Shown here: piece after piece, positions 246 to 33,318 of the stretch
Position numbering within the stretch: the stretch's first letter is position 1
How the letters are laid out: each line of letters starts with the position of its first letter
Assembly (NCBI GenBank): GCA_947494995.1
Contig: CANLWY010000012.1
Span: forward strand, 1-33,461
DNA from: an uncultured Campylobacterales bacterium
GTDB lineage: Bacteria; Campylobacterota; Campylobacteria; Campylobacterales; Arcobacteraceae
Length of the DNA stretch: 33,461 nt
Direction: 5' to 3'
The notes under the pieces: model-generated
The model's input: the letters and a program-made list of their open reading frames with translations, nothing else
Told to the model about the DNA's origin: nothing
The model's database searches: none
Made by a program: the position numbers and the translations under genes

Positions 246-461
246 GTGACAAAAAGTGAATTAGCTAAAAGAATAAATGTAGATATTAAAACATTATCTA
301 ACTGGGAAAATTCAAAACCTGAGTTAATAAAATTAATAAATCTAGGATTATCTGCTGAAAAACACATTATAAATACGCAAACATTTTTAAAAGAAATGGA
401 AATGTTAAAAGATAAAACAGAAATTGACAAATCTTTATTAAAAGAGATTAAACAAAATTAA
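246..461 (+). CDS. Small helix-turn-helix DNA-binding protein
   Basis: A 71-residue protein with a GTG start. Residues 3-22 (SELAKRINVDIKTLSNWENS) read as an XRE/lambda-repressor type helix-turn-helix: an LAKRINV first helix, then a recognition helix TLSNWE. The rest is charged and helical, too short for a sensing domain, so it is probably a compact dimeric regulator. AGGA lies 7-8 nt before the GTG. The leader between its promoter and start holds inverted ACCATT/AATGGT motifs that could be its own operator. It converges with the NACHT gene, so it is not in that operon. Similar small HTH proteins are common in Campylobacterota accessory regions; the target is unknown. Confidence 0.6.
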   Translation: MTKSELAKRINVDIKTLSNWENSKPELIKLINLGLSAEKHIINTQTFLKEMEMLKDKTEIDKSLLKEIKQN

Positions 462-495
462 GATAAGTAGTGTATGATAAAAAAGTAATATATCA

Positions 496-539
496 ATCTG
501 CAATTAAAATATTTAAAGATGAATAATATAATTGCAGAT
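496..539. repeat. 10-bp inverted repeat between convergent genes
   Basis: ATCTGCAATT at 496-505 is exactly mirrored by AATTGCAGAT at 530-539, 24-nt loop. It sits between the 3' ends of the convergent HTH and NACHT genes, so a bidirectional transcription end is the simplest reading. The loop is long and there is no T tract, so it may instead be a protein-binding site. Confidence 0.4.
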
Positions 540-577
540 ATGAAGTTATTTAATATTAAAGTTTATATTAAAAATAT

Positions 578-2356
578 TTATAAGTCCAATAACATATCTA
601 AATCTTCCATTGTATTTTCATGCTTCTTTTTTAATTTTTTATAAGCTTTAAAGCAACAACCTAAATATTCAATGGAAGAAATACTTTTTCCTTTTAAAAG
701 ATCAGTCATAATAGGACTTCTTGAATTAATATTCTCTTTCGTATAAACAGATACATCAACAAAATATTTTTCTTTATAATAATCAGTAAGTTCTTTTATC
801 CCTTTTTTATTCATAAAAATATAATCAGAATAGTTTTCTACAGACATTCTAACTATATTTGACATTATACTTCCATTATCAGTTAATGTAAGTGTAACTT
901 GATTATCATCAGGACAATTTATTTCACTATAAGAGTATTTAAAATATCTATATGCATGAGTAATACCAATTTTATTATTAACTTTTAATAATTTAAATAA
1001 CTTTTCTAATTGAGGAATTAGTAATAATCTTTCGGTTAATTCAGGGTTTATTTCTAGTAATAAATTGAATACATCATCTTGATTTATATTTTGTAAATAT
1101 CTTTTTATAAGTTTTTCTTGTACTTCAGGTTGAGAGTTTGAAATTTGTAAAGAAACAAAATATTCTTGAAAAGATCTATGTGAGAATGCAATTTCTAATC
1201 CCTCTTCCATTAATAAACATGCAGAAGATAATAAATCATCTAAGTAATATTCTTCTTCAAAATTAAAACATAACTTTTTTTTACTTTTTTTTATATAATC
1301 AATACATGTTGACCTTGACATTTTAAAAAATCTTTTTTCGTATGTTTGTAAACAAAACAGAGCAAAAACTCTTGAAAAATCTTGAATATCTAAAGTTGTT
1401 AATCTAACCCTTTTATAACCACCTTTGTTTGCATCATGTCTTTGAAATAATGCTTCATATGCTTGATTATAAAAAACACTTAGTTTAGAAGGTATTTCTG
1501 CATTTTCTCCGTAGGTTAATAGCATAATAGAAAGTAATAATGGATTAGATAAAAAAGAAGCATGTTTATTAAATAATTTATTTTTTAAATCATTTGAAAA
1601 TTTATCTTTAATTTCCTCATCATAAGGTAATTTATTTATTAATTTTATAGCAGATTTTAAAGTTAAAGGATCAATTTTAAATATTTTAAAATCATCAATA
1701 CCTTGAAAAACATCATCCGGTCTTGTAGAAATAAATATAGGACAGTCAGGAAAAGAGTTTGATAAGTTTTTAATTTGCTTCAATAGTTTTTTTCTTATAG
1801 AATGATTTACTTCATCATATCCATCTAAAAAAAATGCAAAATGCCCGTCTTTCATTGCTTTTTTTATATATTCCTCTGAAAGTTTAAATTCAAACGATTC
1901 TAATGTAAAATTTATATAATCCAAAAGTTTCTTATTAGCACTATTTAAATCTCTTAATTCAATTAAGACTGGAGTATAATTTTTTTCTTTAATACAGTTT
2001 AAAAATAAATGTTTCATCAAAACAGATTTACCTGTACCTCCAGTACCCATAATAACAATTCGTTTGGAGTTTTTTACACATTCACTAATATTAGGTTTAT
2101 TAATAACAAAATTACCGGAAGAAATACTGATTGGTTCATAATATGTATATAAATCAACAGATTCATTTCTAATGAAAAAAGATTTAGACTTAGAATATTT
2201 ATTTCTTGTTATAATTAAATATTCAGTATATGCAGTTTTCATTTTAAGTTTTAATGATTGATCTGCTTCTTTTAAACTTTTTTTTCCTAAGCTATATATT
2301 TTACCTAAATTGTTTGCAACAAAATCTGCAACGAATTTACCTTCATCCATCTTCAT
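578..2356 (-). CDS. NACHT-domain NTPase (STAND family), candidate phage-defence protein
   Basis: A 592-residue protein. An N-terminal segment of about 95 residues matches nothing I recognise. It is followed by a NACHT ATPase: Walker A GTGGTGKS at 104-111, Walker B FFLDGYDEV at 175-183, and sensor-like ISTRPDD at 209-215, then an all-helical half (about 260-450) and a roughly 130-residue C-terminal domain. No leucine-rich, WD40 or TPR repeats are visible, so this resembles the short bacterial NACHT proteins (bNACHT) tied to anti-phage immunity rather than long Avs proteins. The annotated ATG overlaps the HNH gene by 14 bp. The in-frame ATG at 2350 has a better-spaced AAAAAGGA and may be the real start (8-bp overlap). 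The overlap implies translational coupling to the HNH nuclease. Defence function is inferred. Confidence 0.8.
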   Translation of the reverse strand: MKMDEGKFVADFVANNLGKIYSLGKKSLKEADQSLKLKMKTAYTEYLIITRNKYSKSKSFFIRNESVDLYTYYEPISISSGNFVINKPNISECVKNSKRIVIMGTGGTGKSVLMKHLFLNCIKEKNYTPVLIELRDLNSANKKLLDYINFTLESFEFKLSEEYIKKAMKDGHFAFFLDGYDEVNHSIRKKLLKQIKNLSNSFPDCPIFISTRPDDVFQGIDDFKIFKIDPLTLKSAIKLINKLPYDEEIKDKFSNDLKNKLFNKHASFLSNPLLLSIMLLTYGENAEIPSKLSVFYNQAYEALFQRHDANKGGYKRVRLTTLDIQDFSRVFALFCLQTYEKRFFKMSRSTCIDYIKKSKKKLCFNFEEEYYLDDLLSSACLLMEEGLEIAFSHRSFQEYFVSLQISNSQPEVQEKLIKRYLQNINQDDVFNLLLEINPELTERLLLIPQLEKLFKLLKVNNKIGITHAYRYFKYSYSEINCPDDNQVTLTLTDNGSIMSNIVRMSVENYSDYIFMNKKGIKELTDYYKEKYFVDVSVYTKENINSRSPIMTDLLKGKSISSIEYLGCCFKAYKKLKKKHENTMEDLDMLLDL

Positions 2357-3260
2357 CCTTTTTAATTTTATTTTTTAATTCTTCAATTGTTAATGTTTTA
2401 TCTTTTTTTCTATGTATTATTACATGACAGTTTGCACATAATGGTATTAAATCTGTTTTTGGATTTACTTTTGTTTCTTTTGTTTCTGAAAGTGGTTTTA
2501 TATGATGTACTTGAATGTAATCTTTTCCATGTTCTCCGTAAGTATCAAAAAAATTAAATCCACAGGCTTTACATGTAGTTCCATGTATTTTAATTGCTGT
2601 TTCTCTTAGTTTTGGATCTCTTTCATAGACAGTTGTATATCTTTGAGTTTTTTTACCTTCTGGTTTTGATTCTAAGTCATCTAAGTCTTTAATTTCTTTT
2701 GGAGCAATAGTCTTTGCTTTTATTATATTATCTAAGAGATCATATAAATTAGTTTTTATTTTTGTAAAATATTTAACTCCACCTATATGATATTTTCTTT
2801 CAACATTATCACAATATCTGTCAATTTGATTTCTAATAACATCATTTATATTTTTATCTTGTGCTCCAAAAATATAGAAGCTATTACTTATTATTGTTTC
2901 TCTAATTTCTTCTATAGTAGATGGTTTTTGTAAAACATGAAATGCTTTTATTACGGCATTATTAATTGTTTTTTTATAAACTATAAAACCTAAAGATTGA
3001 AGTTTTTTTTCCACAGGTATTCCACCATTAAACTCACTATTTAATAAAGGTTTTTCTGTGGGGTATTCATATTTAAATGATACGCCTATAATAGCTTTGG
3101 AATCATATTCTTTATTATTGTGCTCAATATAGTATGTAGTAGCTTCTCCATAGCCATATTTACTTAAGAAGTTTTCTTTTCCAAGTTCATCATATTCTTT
3201 GATTGTTTGTATAATTGAATTTTTATTTTTAATACTATTTATTGTTCTATTGTTTTTCAT
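2343..3260 (-). CDS. HNH endonuclease with ScoMcrA-like head and HARE-HTH-like middle domain
   Basis: 305 residues. Residues 20-95 resemble the N-terminal head of ScoMcrA-like type IV restriction enzymes (a KYGYGEATTYYI segment, then a YDSKAIIG segment). Residues 100-180 resemble a HARE-HTH winged helix, a fold common in restriction proteins. Residues 225-285 form an HNH nuclease: zinc-type Cys pairs at 230/233 and 275/278, the catalytic HH at 252-253, and a final His at 283. It is therefore likely to cut DNA, perhaps modified DNA. It is the first gene of a two-gene operon whose stop overlaps the start of the NACHT ATPase. The promoter is one of the four with 12-bp-spaced TGAC boxes. The combination suggests a nuclease/STAND-ATPase defence pair; substrate unknown. 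Confidence 0.75.
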   Translation of the reverse strand: MKNNRTINSIKNKNSIIQTIKEYDELGKENFLSKYGYGEATTYYIEHNNKEYDSKAIIGVSFKYEYPTEKPLLNSEFNGGIPVEKKLQSLGFIVYKKTINNAVIKAFHVLQKPSTIEEIRETIISNSFYIFGAQDKNINDVIRNQIDRYCDNVERKYHIGGVKYFTKIKTNLYDLLDNIIKAKTIAPKEIKDLDDLESKPEGKKTQRYTTVYERDPKLRETAIKIHGTTCKACGFNFFDTYGEHGKDYIQVHHIKPLSETKETKVNPKTDLIPLCANCHVIIHRKKDKTLTIEELKNKIKKDEDG

Positions 3261-3576: not shown

Positions 3577-4257
3577 ATGAATATAAAAGAAATATTTTTC
3601 AAAAAGAACATTAAAGAGTTAACTCTTAATGAGCTATATAAAATACTAGTTATCTCTGCATTTATACTTGCAATAATTTTAATTACTAGTTTTTTTATTA
3701 CTTTAATGTCTGGAGATTTTGAATCAGTAGTGAAATTATTAGTTCCAATAGGAGTGTTATTATCAGCAGGTTTAGCTTCAGCCAGTGTAATGAAATCAAT
3801 TGAGAATACGAATAAAATTGAAGAAGAAAAATACTTAAAAGAAAAAAATTTTATTAATAACAGGTTGACTGTTTATTTTGATAAGCTATATCTTGCAACA
3901 AACTCATTAAGAGGGACATTAGGCAATCCAATATCTGAAAAAATATATGTAGAAGAACTAAAAGAATTATCAAAAACAATATTAAATGATAATAGTTTTA
4001 TTTCAAATATTAGAGGTGAGATGTTATCAAAACTATTATCGAGTTTAGATATGCTATTAGGAACATTTGGTACAGAAATAGATAAAGAAAAAAGAGAAGA
4101 ATACAATAAAACAGTGGAAGAAAATATTATGGTTTTATATTTTATTATGAAAAGTATTGCAAGTGAAAAAGAAGTTGAAATATTAAGTTTAAAAAAATTA
4201 GAAAATCTTGATGATGATATTAAAATATTTTCTGAAAAAATAAAAGACATAGAATAA
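3577..4257 (+). CDS. Membrane protein of unknown function, two N-terminal membrane segments
   Basis: 226 residues, family not recognised. Two hydrophobic helices at about 22-46 and 52-72 are separated by a short acidic loop (GDFES), then a cytoplasmic helical region rich in Lys/Glu (about 75-226) with coiled-coil character. It sits alone between a GTGAC-box promoter (P2) and a 3' repeat (A), the same frame as the PARIS-like operon at the other end of the window. By that context it may be a defence or effector gene, such as a membrane effector; this is inference. The start has only a moderate ribosome site (AAAGG about 8 nt upstream). Confidence 0.6.
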   Translation: MNIKEIFFKKNIKELTLNELYKILVISAFILAIILITSFFITLMSGDFESVVKLLVPIGVLLSAGLASASVMKSIENTNKIEEEKYLKEKNFINNRLTVYFDKLYLATNSLRGTLGNPISEKIYVEELKELSKTILNDNSFISNIRGEMLSKLLSSLDMLLGTFGTEIDKEKREEYNKTVEENIMVLYFIMKSIASEKEVEILSLKKLENLDDDIKIFSEKIKDIE

Positions 4258-4280: not shown

Positions 4281-4400
4281 GTTGTTCCTTTTTTTGTTCC
4301 CAAATCATATTAAATCATAAAGTAACTGTCACAATAAATTACATAACTACGAAATTCAGCTTATAGTTATAATTCAGCTTATAGTTGTACCTAAGTTATA
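4281..4400 (+). repeat. 3' cassette repeat, copy A
   Basis: Begins with a T-rich GTTCCTTTTTTTGTTCCC, then CATATTAAATCATAAAGTAAC (last base 4325), and ends with two tandem copies of AATTCAGCTTATAGTT (4353-4368 and 4371-4386, period 18). Copy C at 29535-29638 matches it almost base for base from CATATTAAAT to GCTTATAGTTAT; copy B at 5805-5897 is more diverged. It lies about 25 nt after the stop of the 3577 gene, same orientation. AAGGA...TCCTT before the T run may form a weak terminator. Confidence 0.6.
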
Positions 4401-4707
4401 AACACACCTATTTAAGGGATTTAAGAAGTTTTAAATTCTTTATTGTTCCCAAATAAGTTAAAATCTTTTCCTAAATCAATATTTATACTATTTATAACAC
4501 TTGCATAGTGAGCTAAAGTAACTTTTGGAGATGAACGTTCAAAAAGTTATGATACTCATCATTTTATATAAAAGTACGAATTCTTATTCTTTTAAAAATT
4601 GATGTTATAAAAAATATAAATATATAAAAAGAGAATATGAAATTATGAAATCAATATTAATATAAAATATTATATAATCTATATTATTATATAGTAAGGG
4701 ATAATAT
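4401..4707. other. Gene-free AT-rich stretch
   Basis: No convincing ORF. TTGTTCCCAAAT near 4443-4454 repeats the same 12-mer of repeat A (near 4294), so a decayed second copy of the repeat may begin here. The final 100 bp are almost pure A/T and contain several possible -10 boxes for the gene at 4708, none with a clear partner. Confidence 0.4.
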
Positions 4708-5385
4708 ATGGTTAATATATATGGATTTGAATTTTCATTAACATGGATAGCACTATTGTTTTTAACATATAGTATATTTTTTATCTGGATAATAGGAAAA
4801 ATTGAAAAAAAATTTAATAAAAAAAAAGAAAGAATAAAAGAACTTGAGGAAGCATTACTTCAAAAAGACAATATTCTACAAGAAAATATAGAAAAAAATA
4901 CAAAAGAAAAAGATTTCATAGAGAACTTATTAGAAAGTAGTAAAAAATTTACAGATAAATTTGAGTCAGAAGAAATAGAACAAAAGAAAAAAACTGAAAA
5001 GAGTAGAATTCAAAGAGGCAAAGAGTTTGAATGGCAAATATATAATCATTACAATAATTTAGGTTATCAAGTAGAAAATAGAAGTGCAAAATATAAAAAA
5101 CTTGATGGCGGTATTGATATACTTGCTAAAAAAGGTAATTTATATACACTAATACAATGTAAAAACTTTGCACCTACTACAAAAATAAAACATAACTTAG
5201 TAAAAGAGTTTCACGCAAATTGTATTGATTTTATAAATAAAAATTCAAAAAAACTAAATGATGAAAACACTAAGTTTCTATTAGTCATTTCAAATTATGA
5301 ATCTTTAGAAATCTCTGCTTTGCATTATTTAAATGACAAAATAAATAAATGTGAATATCTTGAAATTAAATATATAGAAGAATAA
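4708..5385 (+). CDS. Membrane-anchored Mrr-like restriction endonuclease
   Basis: 225 residues in three parts: a membrane helix at about 10-31, a Glu/Lys-rich coiled coil at about 33-100, and a PD-(D/E)XK nuclease domain from 101. Catalytic-type residues are E106 (GKEFE), D137 (GGID) and the Q150-C151-K152 triad (LIQCKNF), as in Mrr_cat proteins. A VKEFHANC helix follows. It is paralogous to the 32114-32761 protein, sharing GID, IQCKN and VKEFH in order, but that one has no membrane helix. It begins 13 nt upstream of, and probably in one operon with, a secreted Cys-rich protein. Tethering a nuclease to the inner membrane would suit cutting incoming DNA, which is inference. Confidence 0.75.
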   Translation: MVNIYGFEFSLTWIALLFLTYSIFFIWIIGKIEKKFNKKKERIKELEEALLQKDNILQENIEKNTKEKDFIENLLESSKKFTDKFESEEIEQKKKTEKSRIQRGKEFEWQIYNHYNNLGYQVENRSAKYKKLDGGIDILAKKGNLYTLIQCKNFAPTTKIKHNLVKEFHANCIDFINKNSKKLNDENTKFLLVISNYESLEISALHYLNDKINKCEYLEIKYIEE

Positions 5386-5398
5386 AAGAGGAAAGAAA

Positions 5399-5770
5399 AT
5401 GAAGTTAAAACTAGTATTGTTAATATGTATAGGGTTTTTAATCAATATTTATGCAAATGAAAAGTTTGAATTATATAGTTACAACATCAAAGATATTCAG
5501 AATTGTAATAAATTAGATAAAAATAAATTAGTTGATTGTTGTAAGTATAAAAATACATTTATTTTGTATTACAAAAAAATTGAAAATATAATTTTAAAAT
5601 GGGATGTACCTCATTGCAAAGAAAAAAGTAAAAATTTAAAAGATATAGATGGCATACCAATAATTTTAATAGCAGTAGAAAATCCTGATATATACACTGG
5701 TCATGAGTTTACAGTAGAAACTTGTAAGACTAAAGATAAAATATATTACAAAGTTGTTAATAAAATATAG
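5399..5770 (+). CDS. Small secreted Cys-containing protein, unknown function
   Basis: 123 residues. A clear signal peptide (Lys-Leu-Lys start, hydrophobic to about residue 17, then IYANE as a likely cleavage site) leads into a mature domain with six cysteines after the signal (NC, DCC, HC, TC contexts), some probably disulfide-bonded in the periplasm. It follows the membrane-anchored nuclease by 13 nt with GAGGAAAG as ribosome site, so the two are co-expressed. I do not recognise the family. A periplasmic partner of a membrane-tethered nuclease would be unusual; it could equally be an unrelated cargo gene. Repeat B begins about 35 nt downstream. Confidence 0.6.
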   Translation: MKLKLVLLICIGFLINIYANEKFELYSYNIKDIQNCNKLDKNKLVDCCKYKNTFILYYKKIENIILKWDVPHCKEKSKNLKDIDGIPIILIAVENPDIYTGHEFTVETCKTKDKIYYKVVNKI

Positions 5771-5804
5771 AATTAAAATTCTTATAAAGAATAAATATAA
5801 TTAG

Positions 5805-5897
5805 CTGTTCTTTTTTTGTTCAAAAATTATAAAGTAACAGTCTTAAGATATTCTATAATTAGAAGAATCAACTTACAATTGTACCTAACTATCAACT
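5805..5897 (+). repeat. 3' cassette repeat, copy B (diverged)
   Basis: Shares with copies A and C the T-rich GTTCTTTTTTTGTTC start, ATTATAAAGTAACAGTC, and a tail TTACAATTGTACCTAACTAT that parallels TTATAGTTGTACCTAAGTTAT of copy A. It starts about 35 nt after the stop of the secreted protein, same orientation. The middle is diverged, so it is an older or unselected copy. Confidence 0.45.
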
Positions 5898-5975: not shown

Positions 5976-6278
5976 ATGGCTAAATTTATAAAACTAAAAC
6001 TTGAAGAGACATATCAGATTCCTGATGAGTGGGAATTAGTTCAAAATGAAGAAGGAATTACGAAGATAAAAGTTTCTGAAAATGAATATTATGACTTTGG
6101 AAGTATGCCTTATTGTTCAGCATCTGTAGAGGCTGATGAAGAGATGATGTTAACACCTGAAGAATTCTTAGACTTACAAAGCAGGGGACTAGATTTAATA
6201 GTTGCAGATGGTAAGTTATCTAAAATAGAAGATAAAAATGAAATTGAGGAAATCCTTCAACTTGAAAATGAAGAATAA
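5976..6278 (+). CDS. Small acidic protein of unknown function
   Basis: 100 residues, strongly acidic, especially at the C-terminus (a run of Glu-Glu-Ile-Leu-Gln then ENEE). No signal peptide, membrane segment or known motif apart from a conserved-looking FGSMPYCSASVEADEE segment at about 41-57. TTGGAGAA 8 nt before the ATG is a good ribosome site. It stands alone between repeat B and a strong bidirectional terminator. The regular codon use and good start argue that it is real. Acidity alone could suggest a DNA mimic or inhibitor, but nothing here proves that. Confidence 0.6.
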   Translation: MAKFIKLKLEETYQIPDEWELVQNEEGITKIKVSENEYYDFGSMPYCSASVEADEEMMLTPEEFLDLQSRGLDLIVADGKLSKIEDKNEIEEILQLENEE

Positions 6279-6333: not shown

Positions 6334-6747
6334 TTAGAATCCTGCAGAGTAACCTCTACTTGAATGACTCTTAATTAATCCATAATAAGTTTTATCTCTG
6401 ATCTGTTTAATCATGTTTCTTAAAGTAAAGATTGATGTACTCTTATCTTTCCATGCATTCTTTTTAATTGTATCTACATCTACAATTGTACCTTGACTTT
6501 TTAATATTGTATGGAAAATTGCCATTTGTGTTTTAGTTAAACCTACATCAATATTCTTTCTATCAAATACTTTTTTTACTACTTTGTCATAGTAAAAACC
6601 TTTACCTAAATCGATTCTACTATCAATTTGTTGGCTTAATATTTCTTTTAACGTATCTTCTACAGATAAGTTGTATTCTTTTGATTTACTTTTAAGAAAT
6701 CTTTCCATTTCTTTTGTCAAATCAATTGTTAATATATTTGTACTCAT
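6334..6747 (-). CDS. Receiver-less OmpR/PhoB-type winged-helix regulator
   Basis: 137 residues. The N-terminal 45 residues resemble a ribbon-helix-helix or helical dimerisation segment (ILTIDLTKEMERFLKSK); residues about 50-137 are an OmpR/PhoB winged helix (LTKTQMAIFHTIL helix, IFTLRNMIKQIRDK recognition helix, GLIKSHSSRGYSAGF wing). There is no phospho-receiver domain, so it cannot be a standard two-component regulator and probably acts by dimerising. Upstream are a TATAAT -10 and two 11-bp-spaced ACAAT (ATTGT on the coding strand) half-sites, the spacing expected for OmpR-type proteins, so it may control itself. GAGAGAA precedes the ATG. Confidence 0.75.
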   Translation of the reverse strand: MSTNILTIDLTKEMERFLKSKSKEYNLSVEDTLKEILSQQIDSRIDLGKGFYYDKVVKKVFDRKNIDVGLTKTQMAIFHTILKSQGTIVDVDTIKKNAWKDKSTSIFTLRNMIKQIRDKTYYGLIKSHSSRGYSAGF

Positions 6748-16010: not shown

Positions 16011-18929
16011 CTATTCGACACCATATTTTAATGATTCTATTACATCTAAATCAATAATTTTTGGATTGATTTTCTGTAATAAAAATAATAACTCATTAAG
16101 TTTTTGATTTTTATTAGGAGATATATCACCTACGAATTTACTCTTAATATCTTCAAAAATTCCTTTATAGTTATTATTAAGTATTTCAGCATTAGATATC
16201 ATCCATTTTGAAAAAGGATGTCCTATATTTAAAGAATAAGTATTATATTTAGTTCTTAACTGTATTTTATCTTTTATATTTTTATGATAATTAATAAAAA
16301 AACCAACAGGAAAGTATTTTACTATAGCATTATCTTCTACATCTTGATATTTTGATTCTTCTAAAATATCTTCAACATAATAGGTTCCATTCTCATCCAA
16401 ATAACCATTTGTAAACAATATTAAAAGAATTTGTATAAACATTTTCTGAGTATGTGCCTTATATATGTACTCAACATGAAGATGTCTAAGTTCTGGGTAG
16501 TTTAAAACTCCACGATTTTTAATTTCACTCATACTTATATAGTCTGATTCTTTAACCCTAAACAATTTTTCTCTTTTCCATTCCTCTAAGTTTTCATCAT
16601 TTAGAACTTCATTAAAACTAATAAATCCATTAAATCTATTTCTTATCAAAGAACAATCATAAGTTCTATTCATTAAATCATTTTGAGATATAAATTTCGA
16701 CAACATTAAATTTGCAGTTGAAATTGTTTTATAATCAAACTTTACTTCTTTTGAACGTGAAATATCCAAAAAAGGCCTGAATTCATTTGATAAATAAGTA
16801 TGTGCGATGGCATGATTCTTATCATTACTGATAAAATTCAAGATATCTTCATTAAATACACTTGAGAAATCTTCTCCTATATAAATACCATTATGTCCTA
16901 TTTTGGATTTATCAATAAAATTAATTTCATATTCTTCCAAGTCAATTATTAACTTACCATTTAAATGTTGATACCTTTTATGTTCATATGTTTTTTCCAT
17001 TATAAACTTAAATTTATGTTCTAGTGGGTCAAAATACAATTTACTTTTAAACACAAAGTAATCAGAAGAAACCATCATATTAATTTTATAATCAGCATAA
17101 TGTTCATTTAACATTATTAGTAGAATTTGTGAAATTATTTTTGAGTCTTTTGAAATTAATTTAATAGGACTAATTTTAAAACTAACTTTTACATCATTCT
17201 GACTATCATAATTACTAATCCCTAAAAAGTTAGCTATATCCTGTTTATTTTTTTTATTTAGTTCAATTAATTTTTCTTCATCAATCCAAGGATTCTTTTT
17301 AAGATCATCAATTGTAGTTCCAATTTTTTTATTATTGTATTCAATTTTTATTGGAGAATAAAAGATATGTCTTGCTAATTCCTTTTTTATGTCAAACCAA
17401 TAGTTTAGTTTATTAAAGTCAATTTTTACAGCTATTGATGTACCAACATCTCTTCTATATTTTTGTTTTTCACTTGGATTTGAGGAAGGGAAAAAAGCAA
17501 TAAATTTATGTTCATTCTCTAATTGTGTAATAAAATAGGAATTCAAAGATTTAATAGAAAATCGTATAGCTTCGCAATCTTCTTTTTTTGTGCTTATCTC
17601 AACCTTGTCTGCAACCATAAAACAAGATAATATACCTATACCAAACCTACTAATTGCTTTGTAATCAATATTTGTATTAAAATCTTTCGATTCATAAAAT
17701 GATTTACCAATTTTTGTAAAATAGTTAATTAAAACATGTTCATTCATTCCAATGCCAAAATCATCAATTCTAATCCAATAGCTTCCATCTTCTTGATCAT
17801 GCCAATCTGTAATATTAATAGGGTTACAGATAAAATCATAGTTCTTTTTATTTTTTTCTAATGCTTCTCTATACATTGAAGCATCTATTGAGTTTTGTAA
17901 AAGCTCTCTAATAAATATTAACTTATTACTATATATATCATTGCCAGTTAATAAATTCAATACTTGATTATTGTCAAGTGAAAACTTGTAGTCACCAAAT
18001 TTATACCCTTGTGGCTTTATTCCTGAAACATCAATTTTTATAGGTAAGTTTAAAACATTACCCCATTTTTCATAACAATAAGAATTAAAAACTAATTTAG
18101 ATTTTTCAAACTCATTTTCAATAACTTTAATAAATTCTCTAATTGAAAATTCAATTTCTGGATTTGAAGGAACGGCCTTAAAATACAAAATATTATTTTT
18201 ATATTCAAATCCCAAACTTGCTTTATGTTTTTCCCACTCATTTTGACTAATTATTTCTGAAGTATTTTTTGGATTATTCAAACCTAGAAAGTTAAATGAA
18301 GATATAGGTGTTCTCTCATAATCAAAATCCATAATATCTGCAAGTCTTAATAATAAAGCACAAAATACAAAATCATCATCACTACCATTTGATGAAAACT
18401 TTGTAAAATCTTCTAACTCTTTTGTAGGATAATTATGGCTCATGGATATATGGTAAGAGATATCTACTACATCATTATTTTTAATTAACAAATGTTTATT
18501 ATCATTATCCAAAATAAAATCTGTATCAAATAAATATTTTTCTAACCTTAAATGATGGTAACTTCTTAAATAATTTGATACTAAATCACTATTTAATTCT
18601 TTATTTTTTTGAGTAAACCACTTTTCATCTAAAATTTCATTTTTGTCATGACACATCATACCTAAGTCATGCCAATATGATGAAAGAATAATTACTGCTA
18701 ATTCGCTAATAGAGAATTTTTCAATTTTATCACCAATAAGCATTTCAATTAATTTCAATATTTTCAGTGAATGTTCTGCATCATGATTTGTATATGTTGG
18801 AAATACTCTTTTTATCTCTTTAAGTAAAGGTATTGTTTTATCTAGGATATCAGTTATTTTTGATTCAACACCAATATTATCTTTATCTATTAAAACTTTC
18901 CATAGTTTTGTATTTTTATAATCACTCAT
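16011..18929 (-). CDS. HD-domain plus Hsp90-type (GHKL) ATPase protein
   Basis: 972 residues. Residues about 45-205 form an HD-type metal-dependent fold: H49, H53, the WHDLGM motif (H87-D88), conserved H160/H165, and D198 in LLRLADIMD. Residues about 305-450 form an Hsp90-type ATPase: RELLQNSIDA (341-350), DDFGIGM (389-395), RFGIGILSCF (428-437). The C-terminal half (about 460-972) is alpha/beta and unassigned, including an Hsp90 middle-like region. Large proteins of this type appear in bacterial accessory and defence islands, coupling nucleotide or nucleic-acid hydrolysis to an ATP-driven clamp; that role is inferred. GGAGAAA lies 8 nt before the ATG. It stands in an island beside tRNA-Leu and an integrase relic. 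No frameshift seen. Confidence 0.75.
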   Translation of the reverse strand: MSDYKNTKLWKVLIDKDNIGVESKITDILDKTIPLLKEIKRVFPTYTNHDAEHSLKILKLIEMLIGDKIEKFSISELAVIILSSYWHDLGMMCHDKNEILDEKWFTQKNKELNSDLVSNYLRSYHHLRLEKYLFDTDFILDNDNKHLLIKNNDVVDISYHISMSHNYPTKELEDFTKFSSNGSDDDFVFCALLLRLADIMDFDYERTPISSFNFLGLNNPKNTSEIISQNEWEKHKASLGFEYKNNILYFKAVPSNPEIEFSIREFIKVIENEFEKSKLVFNSYCYEKWGNVLNLPIKIDVSGIKPQGYKFGDYKFSLDNNQVLNLLTGNDIYSNKLIFIRELLQNSIDASMYREALEKNKKNYDFICNPINITDWHDQEDGSYWIRIDDFGIGMNEHVLINYFTKIGKSFYESKDFNTNIDYKAISRFGIGILSCFMVADKVEISTKKEDCEAIRFSIKSLNSYFITQLENEHKFIAFFPSSNPSEKQKYRRDVGTSIAVKIDFNKLNYWFDIKKELARHIFYSPIKIEYNNKKIGTTIDDLKKNPWIDEEKLIELNKKNKQDIANFLGISNYDSQNDVKVSFKISPIKLISKDSKIISQILLIMLNEHYADYKINMMVSSDYFVFKSKLYFDPLEHKFKFIMEKTYEHKRYQHLNGKLIIDLEEYEINFIDKSKIGHNGIYIGEDFSSVFNEDILNFISNDKNHAIAHTYLSNEFRPFLDISRSKEVKFDYKTISTANLMLSKFISQNDLMNRTYDCSLIRNRFNGFISFNEVLNDENLEEWKREKLFRVKESDYISMSEIKNRGVLNYPELRHLHVEYIYKAHTQKMFIQILLILFTNGYLDENGTYYVEDILEESKYQDVEDNAIVKYFPVGFFINYHKNIKDKIQLRTKYNTYSLNIGHPFSKWMISNAEILNNNYKGIFEDIKSKFVGDISPNKNQKLNELLFLLQKINPKIIDLDVIESLKYGVE

Positions 18930-19901: not shown

Positions 19902-19987
19902 TGGTACCCGTAGTCGGACTCGAACCGACAAGCTCGTAGAGCATTTGATTTTGAATCAAACGTGTTTACCAGTTTCACCATACGGGC
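19902..19987 (-). tRNA. tRNA-Leu (anticodon CAA)
   Basis: Full cloverleaf on the minus strand: acceptor GCCCGTA/TACGGGT, discriminator A and encoded CCA (19902-19904), D-arm TGGTGAAACTGG, anticodon loop TTCAAAA with CAA, a long variable arm typical of Leu, and T-arm GTCGG-TTCGAGTC-CGAC. The anticodon-loop sequence GATTCAAAATC (19957-19947) is the likely crossover site of the neighbouring integrase. Confidence 0.93.
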
Positions 19988-20082: not shown

Positions 20083-20123
20083 GATTTTGAATCCAACGTG
20101 TTTACCAATTTCACCATACGGGC
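20083..20123 (-). repeat. Duplicate 5' half of tRNA-Leu (attachment-site remnant)
   Basis: Matches tRNA-Leu from its first base (20123) through the anticodon loop GATTCAAAATC (20093-20083), with changes in the D-arm (AATTGG for AACTGG) and anticodon stem (TTGGA for TTTGA). Homology stops right after the loop. This is what integration in the anticodon loop leaves when the incoming element supplies a replacement tRNA. The old gene's 3' half should be at the far end of the island; I did not find it in this window. Confidence 0.7.
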
Positions 20124-28371: not shown

Positions 28372-29364
28372 TTAGTTATAATTCTCTAGTTGGGTATTAG
28401 CTTTAATCTTACTTTCTAGGTTTCTTTTAGTTCGATAAATAGAGTTTTGTATTAAGTTTAAATGATCGATATCATTACAAATAGCTTGAGCTTTTATATA
28501 ATAGTTTTTTGCTTTTCTTAATCTGTTTTGAGCTTCATAAGTTAAAGCGAGGTTGTATAGTATTTCATATGACTTAAAGTTTAGCTTTTTATTTAGTTTA
28601 TGCAATCTTTCTTGAGAGATATTTATGTTTCCATTATCAAGAAGTTCTATAGTATCTTTAAACTCTTTGTTTATAGATTCACTATATTTTGCTTCTTCAA
28701 GTTTATCAATTATTGTGATTTTTTGATAAATGTAATGAGGTGATATATCATTTATAGCTTCTTTTGCAATTTGTCGTGCTAATCTAGAGTTTATAGAGTA
28801 TTCTTCTCTACTTATATTTAGTCTATTGTAATAGTATGGGTGAGGATAATAGTATCTATTTCTGTAGCATTCATTAGTGTATTTTGATTTTGTATATATT
28901 TTTGAGAATAGTAGTCTTTCATCTTGGTTTAAGACATCAATTTTTGTTTTAACTCTATAATCTTTTTTTTCACAAGGGATTTTTCTTATTTTGTATTTTA
29001 GGCACTTGTTCGTTTTTTTGCCATCTTTGTATTTATATTTCCAACATCTTTTATAATCTATATCTTCATCATAGTAAAAATCATACTGCATAGATGATTC
29101 TAAAACTTCTCCTGTAATTATTGCATCTATATCATGATAATCTGATTGTAAATTGAATACTCTTCTGTTATCAATCCTTTTATTTACTAACTGCTCTTCT
29201 AAATAATTGGCTTGATTAATATTGTCATACTCGAAATCCTCAAGTATTACATTGTATATTTTTTTATTTGGTATTAGTGAAGGTTGTAGAGATTTCACTG
29301 TTAATTGTTTTCCTGTACATCCAACAATTAAAAAAGAGAATAGTATTAAAATAAAAGTTTTCAT
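28372..29364 (-). CDS. Lipoprotein with C-terminal TPR-like repeats
   Basis: 330 residues from the ATG at 29364, chosen because AAGGA lies 8 nt upstream and the signal MKTFILILFSFLIVGC begins there with a lipobox Cys at about 16. An in-frame ATG 66 nt further up has no such site and would put a non-signal sequence first. The middle is Tyr/Lys/Cys-rich (YKRCWKYKY, NECYRNRYYYPHPYYY). The C-terminal 100 residues contain TPR-like helices (NLALTYEAQNRLRKAKNYYI). Similar to envelope lipoproteins of unknown function. Repeat C follows upstream of it on the same strand. Confidence 0.65.
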   Translation of the reverse strand: MKTFILILFSFLIVGCTGKQLTVKSLQPSLIPNKKIYNVILEDFEYDNINQANYLEEQLVNKRIDNRRVFNLQSDYHDIDAIITGEVLESSMQYDFYYDEDIDYKRCWKYKYKDGKKTNKCLKYKIRKIPCEKKDYRVKTKIDVLNQDERLLFSKIYTKSKYTNECYRNRYYYPHPYYYNRLNISREEYSINSRLARQIAKEAINDISPHYIYQKITIIDKLEEAKYSESINKEFKDTIELLDNGNINISQERLHKLNKKLNFKSYEILYNLALTYEAQNRLRKAKNYYIKAQAICNDIDHLNLIQNSIYRTKRNLESKIKANTQLENYN

Positions 29365-29534
29365 AAAATATCCTTGTTTTATCAAGAGTATTTTAGTATT
29401 TATTTGTATAAAAAAAGTGATTTTAAACACTATTTTGAGATAATATTAAATAAGCTAAAAACTATCAAAGAAAGCTACTGTTTTATCACTATCTTTGATT
29501 TTTTTTCATTTTTTGTTACAAAAATTGTAACAAT

Positions 29535-29638
29535 ATTCAGCATAACTATAAGCTGAATTTTGTAGTTAGGTAATTAAATGATACTGTTACTTTATAATTT
29601 AATATGTTTTTTGGAAAGAAAGCAAAATAGAGGAATAA
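29535..29638 (-). repeat. 3' cassette repeat, copy C
   Basis: On the minus strand it reads CCTCTATTTTGCTTTCTTTCC, then CATATTAAATTATAAAGTAAC and on to CTAACTACAAAATTCAGCTTATAGTTAT. It matches copy A (4281-4400) with few changes, including the inverted AACTA...TAGTT ends. It lies about 60 nt after the AriB-like gene, in the same orientation, as copies A and B lie after their genes. Confidence 0.6.
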
Positions 29639-29698
29639 TTTCTTTATTTACTCTTTATTTTTTATTAAGTACTAAAGAGTTTTAATTCTCTAGCACTT

Positions 29699-30715
29699 TT
29701 AATATTCTAATTCTAATATTCTTTCTTTTATGTAATTAAGAGAACTTAATTTTTCATTTTTAAATATTAATTTCTTAATTTGCTCTGAATTGTATGAATT
29801 TACTTTATATAAACATTTTCTGTGTTTATCTAATGAACAATATTGGCATTGCGTTATGGCATTATTTTTACAATAATTTTTTAGTTCTTTTAATTCTTTA
29901 CCTAATAAAAAGAGAAAGTTTTCTAAATACCATTTACCTTTAACAATTTTTAATAAGTTTTCTTCATTATTTGTAATCGATTTACTATCTGCAAAAATAT
30001 CTAGTTCTTCTTTTTTTGATTCAATACTAATATACTTTTGTTCAAAATCTGGATGTTTAATTATTCCTTCATAACTATCAGGTTTGTATCTGAATTCACT
30101 GTTATAGTCATTACAACATGCATTTTTAAGAGCTTCAAGAGAAATATAATACATTTTAGATAATTCACTTAATAATTTTATGTATATTCTGTTAATTAGA
30201 AAATCATCAATTAATTTATATGATGCTAAAGTAGTATAATTTATTATTTGTGGAATCACTTCTTTATTTACATAATGACTTTCAATAGAATAATACTTTA
30301 ATAAAAAAATTCCATCTAATTGTGGAATTGTATTCTTATAATCATGTACATCTTTATCAATAATTCCTAAGATATATTTTGAATAATCATATCCTTCACT
30401 ATATTTCTGAATTTCTTCAACTGCATCAATAACACCTAAACAACCTTCTTTACCATTATTACTTTTTGCAAAACTTTTACCATTAATTTTAAATTCTGCT
30501 ATTCTCCATGAATATTTATATAATTTAGAACAAACTTGACTACTTATTTTTGGCAAGTTTTCACTTGCAAAAACTTCAAAGTCTCTATCAATTGAAACTA
30601 GTATATTTTCATATATAGGAATGTCATCAATTCCTTCAACAATTACTAATGGTTCTTTTCCCATAATCGCTAAATTTATTAGCTCATCAACTTCGAATGA
30701 TAATGGATGAGACAT
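29699..30715 (-). CDS. AriB-like TOPRIM/DUF4435 nuclease (PARIS)
   Basis: 338 residues. TOPRIM core: the acidic VEGIDD at 26-31 with E27, at the place of the catalytic Glu known in AriB, and the IIDKDVHDY segment (D120, D122) with the DUF4435 hallmark KYYSIESHY at about 140-148. PARIS systems pair this protein with an AriA ATPase; when phage anti-restriction protein is sensed, AriB is released and cuts host tRNA. The C-terminal part has a Cys cluster (C282, C290, C293, C301) that could bind zinc, which I do not know from standard AriB. Its ATG overlaps the last base of the ATPase gene, so the two are coupled. Confidence 0.65.
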   Translation of the reverse strand: MSHPLSFEVDELINLAIMGKEPLVIVEGIDDIPIYENILVSIDRDFEVFASENLPKISSQVCSKLYKYSWRIAEFKINGKSFAKSNNGKEGCLGVIDAVEEIQKYSEGYDYSKYILGIIDKDVHDYKNTIPQLDGIFLLKYYSIESHYVNKEVIPQIINYTTLASYKLIDDFLINRIYIKLLSELSKMYYISLEALKNACCNDYNSEFRYKPDSYEGIIKHPDFEQKYISIESKKEELDIFADSKSITNNEENLLKIVKGKWYLENFLFLLGKELKELKNYCKNNAITQCQYCSLDKHRKCLYKVNSYNSEQIKKLIFKNEKLSSLNYIKERILELEY

Positions 30716-32100
30716 TATATTTTCTCCGGACTTAATTCAACTAAACTTGAAGTCATTTTTTTCGCAATTAATGGACTGTGAGAGGCTACAATAATTTGTG
30801 CATTTGGTGCAAGTTTTTCTAAAAGTTTCATTAATTTTCTTTGCCATTTTACATTTAATGAAATTTCTGGTTCATCAATAAAAATAAAGTCTCTTGAAAC
30901 ACCTTCCACTATTACTAATGATAAGAAAGTGAAAATATGACGTTCTCCACTTGATAAAATATTAATATCATATTCATCATCATCTATTTCAATATATATT
31001 TCATCTGATGTTATAACAAGTCTTTTTTCATCACCTAAAAATTTATTATATTCTTCTGTAAAAGTTGAAATTGAACTTAGTAATAACTTTTCAAGTTCTA
31101 ACTCTCTCATCATATTTTCAATTAAGTTGTATAAAATTTGGTTATCTATTTTTTCTTCAACATCATTATCTTTTTCTATGGAGCTCAATATTTCAATAAC
31201 TTTAGTTTTAAATTTATTATGTTCAGAATCATCTTTTAAAGCTTCAATTATTCTTTCTTTATTTTTAAGTAATGAAGTTTTAAAGTAATAACTAATACTT
31301 GGTTTATCTTTGATATTAATGTCTTTAATCTTTCCTGTTTGGAAAATAAATGATAATGTATCAAATAATGCATATTGGATTCTTTCTGTTGCAAAACTTC
31401 TAGCTTCTTCGTATCTTTCTAATAATAATGCTTCAATATTATTCATTCTAATATCTTGTAAAAAAGTATGATCTTCCTTTAAAGAACTATCTACTTTTCC
31501 TCTAGAACTATTTCTTCTAAATGTTCTGGTTATATATGAAGCTAATTCTCTAGAAAACTTGTGCCTATTCATATTTAAAAAATCTTCTCTATAACTTCTA
31601 TTTCTTGATATAAAAGTATATATATCTGCGGAATCAACTGTTTGATTTCTTTGTGTTACCCCTCTGTCAACTCCCATTGAAATTGATTTAGTTTCAGATA
31701 ACTCTGATTTATTAAATTCTGTCCAATCATATTTATCATTACTTTTTTCATCTCTTTCAATAGGTTCAACTACTTGTGTATAAGCATTTTGATATTGTTC
31801 TTTTTTTTCTAAATCAACTTTATCTTCTTTTGGAATATGCCTAATTGTAATATATTTTTCTATGTTATTTACACTATAAGTAATAATAATTTTTTTTATA
31901 CACTCTTTATATAATGAAACATTATCTTGTTTTAATATTGCATTAAGTACCTTAAGAAAAGTAGTTTTACCACTACCATTATCTCCAAAGATAACACTTG
32001 AATTACCATCTGCAAAGCGTACTTTTACTTTTTTATTTTTTGTTTGAAACCCAAAAATCTCTATTTCTTTTAATAATATTTTATTTTTTTTATATTTCAT
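30715..32100 (-). CDS. AriA-like ABC-type ATPase (PARIS)
   Basis: 461 residues. Walker A GDNGSGKT at 39-46, ABC signature LSSGE at 382-386, Walker B FIFIDEPE at 405-412, and the switch His in ASHSPL (H441). The long middle part (about 110-370) is helical, as in AriA and the OLD-family ATPases. Together with the adjoining DUF4435/TOPRIM gene it fits the PARIS defence system, in which AriA sequesters AriB until a phage protein triggers release. The one-base overlap with AriB and the Mrr-like gene 14 nt upstream point to a three-gene operon. PARIS normally has two genes; the added nuclease is the odd feature. Confidence 0.7.
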   Translation of the reverse strand: MKYKKNKILLKEIEIFGFQTKNKKVKVRFADGNSSVIFGDNGSGKTTFLKVLNAILKQDNVSLYKECIKKIIITYSVNNIEKYITIRHIPKEDKVDLEKKEQYQNAYTQVVEPIERDEKSNDKYDWTEFNKSELSETKSISMGVDRGVTQRNQTVDSADIYTFISRNRSYREDFLNMNRHKFSRELASYITRTFRRNSSRGKVDSSLKEDHTFLQDIRMNNIEALLLERYEEARSFATERIQYALFDTLSFIFQTGKIKDINIKDKPSISYYFKTSLLKNKERIIEALKDDSEHNKFKTKVIEILSSIEKDNDVEEKIDNQILYNLIENMMRELELEKLLLSSISTFTEEYNKFLGDEKRLVITSDEIYIEIDDDEYDINILSSGERHIFTFLSLVIVEGVSRDFIFIDEPEISLNVKWQRKLMKLLEKLAPNAQIIVASHSPLIAKKMTSSLVELSPEKI

Positions 32101-32113
32101 TGATTATTTCCTT

Positions 32114-32761
32114 TTAAATCACTTCATATCTACAATTGTAAGTATCATCTCTAAATACTCTAATTGCTGAATTATCAAATACCTTCTTATCAGGTACAAC
32201 ATATTTTAATTTTACTTGCTCTTTATTTATTGTATATTTTTCTATATATATTATTGCATTACTATGGAACTCTTTTACTTTTACATGGTCTATACTTTTT
32301 TCTTTTGAATAGTTCTTACATTGAATTAATATGATTTCTTCAGAATTAACACAAATCAAATCAATTCCTTTATCTTTTTTATCATTTTCTATTCCATTGT
32401 ATAAAACCTTATAGCCTCTTTCTTCATATACTTTTCCAGTTTTTAACTCAAAATCAGTCCCTTTTTTCTTATTATTCTTATGAAATTCTTTTTGTCTTTT
32501 TTTTCTATTTTCTTCAAAAGCTTTTTTTCTTTCTACTTTCTCTTTTTTTTCTAAATCTTTTTCTTCTTTTTTATTTACTTGTTCTTCATATCTTTTCCTA
32601 TATTTTTCTTCACTTTTCTTTAGCTCTTCTAAATAATTCAGTTTATTTGGATTGATTGTATTTTGATTGTGTATTAATATTTCATCAATATTGTTATTTT
32701 GATTTTCATTTGTAGATTCAGATTTTCTATTATTAAAGATTTCTTTTATAAAGTTTATCAT
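32114..32761 (-). CDS. Mrr-like restriction endonuclease, coiled-coil type
   Basis: 215 residues. No membrane helix; a Lys/Glu coiled coil at about 45-98, then a PD-(D/E)XK domain from about 99 with E105 (GTDFELK), D134 (KGID), and Q147-C148-K149 (IQCKNY). VKEFHSNAI follows, matching VKEFHANCI of the 4708 protein, so the two are paralogues with different N-termini and partners. GGGGGAAA sits 6 nt before the ATG, and promoter P3 lies directly upstream. First gene of an operon with the AriA/AriB-like pair. It may serve as a third PARIS component or as a separate restriction nuclease; either is inference. Confidence 0.75.
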   Translation of the reverse strand: MINFIKEIFNNRKSESTNENQNNNIDEILIHNQNTINPNKLNYLEELKKSEEKYRKRYEEQVNKKEEKDLEKKEKVERKKAFEENRKKRQKEFHKNNKKKGTDFELKTGKVYEERGYKVLYNGIENDKKDKGIDLICVNSEEIILIQCKNYSKEKSIDHVKVKEFHSNAIIYIEKYTINKEQVKLKYVVPDKKVFDNSAIRVFRDDTYNCRYEVI

Positions 32762-32991: not shown

Positions 32992-33318
32992 CTATAATTC
33001 TTTAGATTTAGTGAAGTGATATATACTTTTTATGTCATTTTCTAATAAGTTTTCAAGACTTTTTATAATTTCTTCTTTGTAGTCTATTTCTTCTTTTTTA
33101 TCTGTATAAATCTCATTAATATTCAGATTTTCTGAAATACACAACTCTAATATTTCATTATGTGGTATTGAATTTGTACGTTTTCGTTCACTAAAAGCTG
33201 TACTTTTCAGATTTAATTTACCGGCAAGGTCTTTATCACTCTTTATTTTAAGGGCTTTTTTAAGATTTTCTACAATTTTTTCAAATTTATTCATATTTTC
33301 TGTACTTTCTATTGACAT
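32992..33318 (-). CDS. Phage CI-type repressor-like HTH protein
   Basis: 108 residues. Residues 12-60 match the N-terminal HTH of phage CI repressors (Phage_CI_repr): a helix FEKIVENLKKALKIKSDKDL, then AGKLNLKSTAFSERKRTNSI, then PHNEILELCI. The C-terminal 45 residues are helical and charged, too short for a self-cleaving peptidase, so release would need another partner. The start ATG overlaps the TTGACA -35 of the rightward promoter on the other strand. It controls a divergent pair in lysogeny-switch style: itself and the gene starting at 33384. It also reads into a small membrane-protein gene. Confidence 0.7.
   Translation of the reverse strand: MSIESTENMNKFEKIVENLKKALKIKSDKDLAGKLNLKSTAFSERKRTNSIPHNEILELCISENLNINEIYTDKKEEIDYKEEIIKSLENLLENDIKSIYHFTKSKEL

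Follow-up and report, generated by a model that had tools for sequence, protein, structure and literature searches.

Integrative elements that target tRNA and tmRNA genes carry the 3' end of the RNA gene, restore that gene on integration, and stack in tandem. Among filamentous phages, the Pf prophages of Pseudomonas aeruginosa combine, in the portion of the published account drawn on here, a uniform core with five integrase types paired with five sites (three tRNAs, tmRNA, and a direct repeat), and their accessory open reading frames (ORFs) lie outside the core, delimited by attachment (att) sites (PMC7549136). Published accounts also describe superinfection exclusion by genes of inoviruses and a defense module in Pf (PMC6813254, PMC11341870). 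The stretch of 33,461 nucleotides (nt) described here (the window; positions 1 to 33,461 of contig CANLWY010000012.1, assembly GCA_947494995.1) is from an uncultured Campylobacterales bacterium of the Arcobacteraceae and contains three copies, A, B, and C, of a noncoding repeat, each just past an accessory gene. Rather than a free-standing mobile repeat, a terminator, or an RNA, these are very probably att halves whose core derives from the 3' end of the RNase P RNA gene, rnpB, in prophages of filamentous-phage-like (inovirus) type that use tyrosine integrases.

The resemblance to Pf lies in the filamentous core, the integrase type that sets the site, and the accessory genes at att sites, within what the available text of PMC7549136 covers; the differences are the Campylobacterota host, the rnpB target, and an rnpB-type att half that persists inside a prophage at another site. 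Relative to elements at tRNA and tmRNA genes the logic is the same, the difference being that the RNA gene is rnpB. As in inovirus prophages with antiphage cargo the elements are filamentous, and the cargo here (NACHT, HNH, Mrr, and an AriA-like ATPase) is known by profile alone. A literature search for rnpB or the RNase P RNA gene as an integration site recognized no report in the excerpts returned, and absence there is not proof.

The rnpB site and copies A and B

The att halves and the features that frame them are as follows; C2, C5, C8, and C17 denote other contigs of the same assembly, and G numbers denote other genomes.

4281-4356, plus strand: copy A, phage-side (P'-type) arm with paired GTTCC at 4284-4299 and ATAAAGTAACTGT at 4317-4329, from alignment with B, C, and the prophages of G024 and G009 and from the motif count in the genome
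4357-4423, plus strand: two tandem rnpB-type cores (CAGCTTATAGTT at 4357-4368 and 4375-4386) followed by an integrase-side (P-type) arm, from the match to the C8 rnpB 3' end
4424-4555, minus strand: decayed C-terminal end of a tyrosine integrase, 80% identical to residues 304-351 of the C8 integrase, assigned to an older rnpB prophage
5805-5897, plus strand: copy B, with a GTTC pair at 5807-5821, ATAAAGTAACAGT at 5829-5841, and a diverged rnpB-like 3' end (by eye), read as the right end of an older relic
6334-6747, minus strand: gene that follows rnpB in relatives, from its orthologs there, marking the chromosomal side of the rnpB site
29535-29638, minus strand: copy C, with an arm containing ATAAAGTAACAGT at 29583-29595 and an rnpB-type core at 29544-29555, inside a prophage beside rraA and read as a fossil att half

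All three copies are present where the sequence-only reading had located them, and the near-identity it had seen between A and C is well above background. Copy A (4291-4370) and copy C (29542-29621, minus strand) agree at 66 of 80 bases in an ungapped alignment; the next best match to A is B (46/80), and the top unrelated stretch of the window reaches 43/80. Used as a query against its own 3.17-Mb genome, A finds C at E=1e-17, and B is 72% identical to C across 57 bases. Copy B is weaker and lacks CATATTAAAT, and it has in common with A a TATAAAGTAACNGTC-type motif and a GTTC..GTTC arm. The motif ATAAAGTAACNGT occurs five times in the genome (its reversed control pattern is absent): once in each of A, B, and C, once upstream of the integrase gene of C8, and once within a C5 coding gene, where it is taken for chance. 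There are four occurrences of CAGCTTATAGTT, two in A, one in C, and one at the rnpB 3' end. The distances from the upstream stop codon (23 nt for A, 34 nt for B, and 60 nt for C, all co-oriented with that gene) fall within the 20 to 60 nt noted earlier.

The presumed source of the core is on C8, where rnpB (131229-131553) is intact and matches its Rfam model at full length (positions 1-367 of 367, 239.8 bits), with a 12-pair end helix that by eye includes one G-U pair. The 3' part of A (4375-4410) is identical to the C8 rnpB 3' end plus flank at 34 of 36 bases. At 23 bases past rnpB, on the opposite strand and with its end toward rnpB, is a tyrosine integrase gene; its product has Phage_integrase and Arm-DNA-bind_2 domains and also matches the phrog_1 integrase, and a small gene with weak helix-turn-helix (HTH) matches adjoins it. 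The integrase-side arm past the core is near-identical on C8 and after A and contains GTTCCC sites, and a similar GTTCC pair stands at the start of A. Copy A is thus laid out as arm, core, and arm, the make-up of a phage attachment site. The origin in rnpB, the integrase remnant and tandem second core of this region, and the position of C away from any junction all go beyond what had been noted from the window itself.

All 13 same-genus relatives in which both genes were found (the count leaves out G007 and G011, in which rnpB was not found) have the ortholog of 6334-6747 downstream of rnpB, separated from it by 39, 103, 144, 201, 202, 300, 899, 1060, 2683, 3237, 3392, 4167, or 12260 bases. 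Window positions 1 to approximately 6285 therefore belong between rnpB and 6334, as material inserted at rnpB. The window from position 1 to A can be read as the right part, or cargo end, of one rnpB prophage whose integrase end would be on C8, with A as its right end; just beyond A, this reading places an older prophage relic comprising the integrase stub, an Mrr nuclease, a 123-amino-acid (aa) gene, and B. Between B and the resumed chromosome there is a 100-aa gene (5976-6278) with no family and no match in the relatives' rnpB loci.

Each att half would consist of a phage-side arm (paired GTTCC-like sites and ATAAAGTAACNGT), which may be bound by integrase or excisionase, and then a core that duplicates the rnpB 3' end. 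The C8 integrase would recombine the phage core with the rnpB 3' end, and since the phage would supply its own copy of that end, rnpB would be kept whole. Later arrivals would enter the same site and push older prophages outward, where these would decay save for cargo and arms; some of the elements may still be mobile.

The rnpB flank is variable within the genus. Seven relatives with larger gaps (G003, G004, G006, G008, G010, G012, and G014) were read, and their flanks have no match to 19 query proteins; a strict pattern found no second rnpB end in them, and it failed on G004's own rnpB end as well. The genes are ordinary looking apart from a SIR2-like gene in G003, and G008 has a possible arm remnant. 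In G003 (L293, G003:C1:334900-348000), the 12.3 kb past rnpB holds several large genes, one of them SIR2-like (PF13289), with no integrase match. In G008 (L296, G008:C6), a stretch like the integrase-side arm (GGGCTTT...CTGTTCCCAA) comes right after rnpB with no integrase, possibly the trace of a lost prophage.

A second prophage at rraA, a shared phage contig, and related prophages

Copy C belongs to a second element, at the other end of the window, bounded there by the following features.

28372-29430, minus strand: gene (lipoprotein by eye) that is the divergent neighbor of rraA in relatives' loci, marking the chromosomal side of the rraA site
29431-29448, plus strand: right att core of the rraA-side prophage, TATTTTGAGATAATATTA, identical at 18 of 18 bases to C2:1434-1451 beside the C2 integrase

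The ortholog of 28372-29430 adjoins rraA divergently in six of the seven relatives' loci that were read (10 matches in nine relatives), the exception being G009, where another gene neighbors it. Contig C2 of this genome has rraA (RraA by NCBIfam and Pfam) at its start, preceded by a second integrase, 30% identical to that of C8. When the flanks are joined across the 18-bp core they resemble the rraA intergenic regions of relatives; together, the shared core and the pairing of rraA with 28372-29430 in relatives place a second prophage, with its own core, between these two genes.

The integrase sides of both prophages are fitted by contig C17 (4,208 bp), which overlaps C8 and C2 by 77 bp each and fits an assembly repeat. 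It codes for a pI/Zot-type ATPase (1-1005; Pfam Zot, 6e-12; phrog_197, 3.2e-13), a pIV secretin (950-2212; Pfam Secretin, 2.5e-28; phrog_1012, 1.1e-37), and a G2P/GPA-type rolling-circle replication protein (Rep) that begins at 2997 (Phage_GPA, 6.4e-12; REP_ORF2-G2P, 2.5e-9). In a phage collection the secretin matches those of the Vibrio filamentous phages VFJ, fs2, and Vaf1 at ∼24% identity, Rep has no match at E≤1e-5, and the C8 integrase reaches at most 34.5% among the matches listed, which include Nitratiruptor and Helicobacter phages, consistent with a host in the Campylobacterota. Plasmids give no match to copy A and at most 26.8% to the integrase among the matches listed. Named bacterial genomes, searched with the C8 integrase by a scan that reaches only close relatives and may leave out the genome itself, give one match at 27%. 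Scans of viral contigs gave no relatives of the integrase or Rep. With the arm motif they yield at least 120 stretches; 8 of the 120 listed have a core-like or arm-like neighbor and none of these resemble each other by eye, so that in viral contigs the motif lacks specificity when used by itself.

Similar prophages are present in other genomes. The G024 prophage has the closest full-length integrase (60%), together with the phage genes for Zot, secretin, and Rep, a small HTH gene, and a CI-type repressor. It lies between two perfect copies of a 25-bp repeat, at the 3' end of an HD-domain gene (HD_3), and its far end has a similar arm with a GTTCCC pair and ATAAAGTAACTGTCACA. The G009 prophage has a 21-bp repeat, matches to Zot, Rep, and the repressor but none to the secretin, and an arm weaker than that of G024. 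Of 40 relatives searched with the DNA of A, 10 matched at E≤0.01 and were judged by eye: the matches in G024 and, weakly, in G009 look like arms, the G008 match on its contig C6 is its true rnpB end, and the others look like chance.

Integrases close to that of C8 adjoin rnpB in G320 (45%), G021 (40%), and G018 (59%, a relic). In G320, on a single contig, the rnpB end recurs approximately 7.4 kb away at 20 of 21 bases, and the last gene before this far repeat, an Mrr gene, ends 82 nt ahead of it; the 7.4-kb element (L289, G320:C2:1205001-1225000) has no matches to the phage genes named above. In a survey at E≤1e-35, 46 of 398 genomes of the order, including this one, are integrase positive. 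Forty integrase loci (29 non-own survey loci, 10 further loci [L055-L063 and L077], and the G018 contig) were checked with Rfam, and within ∼1.5 kb the RNA gene is rnpB in 3, tmRNA in 1, and tRNA in 16, with none in 20, including G024; nearness to an RNA gene is no proof of the target. The three rnpB-adjacent loci are L259 and L260, which have the closest full-length integrases after that of G024, and the G018 relic. In a 42-row tree the C8, G024, G021, and G320 integrases form one clade (100/100), with three at rnpB and one at the HD gene, and the C2 integrase is in a distant part, where the program warned of long branches. Across the elements arms are kept while cores change, the behavior expected for the two kinds of site in enzymes of this class. 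Within the genus a prophage at rnpB is shown in this genome only; outside it an integrase lies beside rnpB in G021 and G320 and a relic in G018.

Copy C and a proposed exchange of integration cassettes

Copy C is not at a prophage-chromosome junction: its rnpB-type core lies 95 bp from the 18-bp att core, inside the rraA-side prophage, and it has no evident purpose for the C2 integrase. It probably represents the fossil of an att half, left behind when the integrase was swapped. The C8 and C2 sequences agree at 139 of 142 bases up to approximately the HTH gene start and at 74 of the next 200, which fits one breakpoint there, and the other would be at the end of the core of C. A single replacement in the circular phage, from just past the old core to about the HTH gene start, is the simplest account of this arrangement, the replacing cassette consisting of a spacer, a new core, and a new integrase. 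More broadly, we put forward tentatively, as a proposal slightly easier to doubt than to accept, that filamentous prophages of this group swap whole integrase-att cassettes, with breaks at the old core and near the start of the HTH (excisionase-like) gene, leaving the old site as a fossil (C), and that with a fixed defense slot one phage core would move defense genes between rnpB, the rraA intergenic region, and the HD-domain gene.

Two other origins of C are each unlikely. Copy C might be a working arm of the rraA prophage's own integrase, its arm and rnpB-like core being kept because integrase or excisionase binds there; arms of known tyrosine integrases can sit ∼100 nt from the core, and the arm is also found, in a weak form, in G009, whose integrase belongs to another group. 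However, the 12-base rnpB core kept in C should be needless for an integrase that uses TATTTTGAGATAATATTA, the C2 integrase is distant in the tree (with its long branches), and the spacing of motif and rnpB-type core in C, 27 nt, is the very spacing found in A (the motif-core distance in G024 is 41 nt), whereas the rraA core is 134 nt from the motif. It is similarly doubtful that C arrived with the right-hand end of an rnpB-type prophage when co-resident prophages exchanged their cargo ends by homologous recombination. Such an exchange is plausible given the C17 core common to both prophages, and C is attached to the cargo, not to the integrase; the new core, however, must then also land just outside the old one, whereas one replacement from the old core to about the HTH gene start explains both joints.

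Cargo genes, weaker alternatives, and implications

The accessory genes of the window, named from profiles where a family was found (several are nameless), are listed here with the repressors beside them.

246-461, plus strand: small HTH gene (HTH_3, E=1.2e-4; 22.5 bits, cut-off 23) that may encode the rnpB prophage's repressor
437-550, plus strand: decayed 3' end of an Mrr-like gene of the rnpB prophage, 58% over 38 residues, with stops
578-2356, minus strand: predicted NACHT/SNaCT13 nucleoside triphosphatase, by profile; cargo of the rnpB prophage
2343-3260, minus strand: predicted HNH nuclease, type IV restriction-like, by profile; cargo of the rnpB prophage
3577-4257, plus strand: 226-aa protein, no family in profile searches; cargo just before copy A
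4708-5385, plus strand: predicted Mrr-type nuclease, by profile; cargo of the older relic
5399-5770, plus strand: 123-aa protein, no family in profile searches; cargo just before copy B
29699-32100, minus strand: 338-aa protein and predicted AriA-like AAA ATPase, by profile; cargo of the rraA-side prophage
32114-32761, minus strand: predicted Mrr-type nuclease of the rraA-side prophage, by profile
32992-33318, minus strand: CI-type repressor of the rraA-side prophage, 33-35% identical to the G009 and G024 prophage products by protein comparison

The cargo is located between the repressor and the arm or, in the relic, between the integrase stub and the arm. Defense-type genes, as judged from their profiles, appear to occupy one slot, from the repressor to the attachment site, and for this reason are found next to the repeats. 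The AriA-like ATPase (30715-32100) matches PADLOC AriA at 5e-25, the best of 69 PADLOC models matched; its 338-aa neighbor has no match to the AriB nuclease (DUF4435) in Pfam, PADLOC, or NCBIfam, and the locus is therefore not filed as PARIS. By profile names, the G024 cargo includes DndC-, DndD/PbeC-, and DndE-like genes and an MzaB-like gene, and the G009 cargo includes a DndC-like and a PD-Lambda-5_A-like gene.

The sequence-only reading was right that the repeat is a mobile-element flank, kept while the neighboring accessory genes differ between elements. Its rule that the repeat stands 3' of a co-oriented gene describes the three window copies and the G320 Mrr gene and is not general, since in both G024 and G009 the arm adjoins the start of the DndC-like gene, which points away from it. 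Its proposals of a repeat that travels by itself as a 3' flank, and of a site for exchange of the genes between copies, are not supported, the copies being read as att halves of prophages, with C lying inside a different prophage.

Several observations weigh against the att-half reading as a whole. The likeness of B to rnpB is weak, simple integration does not account for the two tandem cores in A, and the 100-aa gene after B is without explanation. A search of the genome with both window ends found no overlap with any readable contig stretch, so the links between C17 and the window rest on synteny and the att cores. No coat protein was identified among the G024 ORFs before Zot that were used for this check (four small and two larger ORFs without a Pfam match). 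No such prophage was found at rnpB in the 13 same-genus relatives, the far rnpB repeat of G021 was not found within the 20 kb read, and the G024 integrase, the closest at full length, uses another gene as target, such that integrase closeness does not fix the target.

Two further explanations can be rejected as very improbable. Copies lying 23 to 60 nt past stop codons in the window might suggest a terminator, a small RNA, or a regulatory element that is widespread at accessory-gene ends, but the copies fold no better than shuffles (z of 0.61, -0.11, and -1.04), there is no terminator pattern in 29420-29720, an Rfam scan of the window matches a tRNA only and none of A, B, or C, three of only five motif matches genome-wide are the copies themselves, and in G024 and G009 the arm is upstream of the neighboring gene; the outcomes that had been named as refuting the earlier observation, including a match no better than background, are thus not seen. 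Integron attC-like sites of a cassette system that shuffles single genes, which the different accessory genes ending at similar repeats could suggest, are equally improbable given that the adjacent integrase is of phage type with an arm-binding domain (no separate integron integrase model was run), that the core comes from the 3' end of rnpB (attC models were not part of the search), and that the elements hold several genes in both orientations plus phage genes.

Three other loci were noted. An Mrr-type gene on C2 (L115 3323-4000; G000:C2:319822-320499) has 60% protein identity to 32114-32761 in a setting that looks nonphage. A 972-aa HD-CE and HATPase protein (16011-18929), among chromosomal-looking genes far from the repeats, may be a defense gene. 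The 5' half of a tRNA-Leu (CAA) gene (19902-19987, minus strand) is repeated over 41 bases at 95% identity 136 bases away (20083-20123), which may be what is left of a duplicated tRNA or else a further att site.

The repeats are simply explained by ordinary phage logic, a warning against taking attachment sites for gene-exchange repeats. If this explanation is true, the RNase P RNA gene would join the stable RNA genes that phages use as docking sites, a defense-gene slot would be present in filamentous prophages outside Pseudomonas, and copy C would record, in readable form, a change of integration target by a phage.

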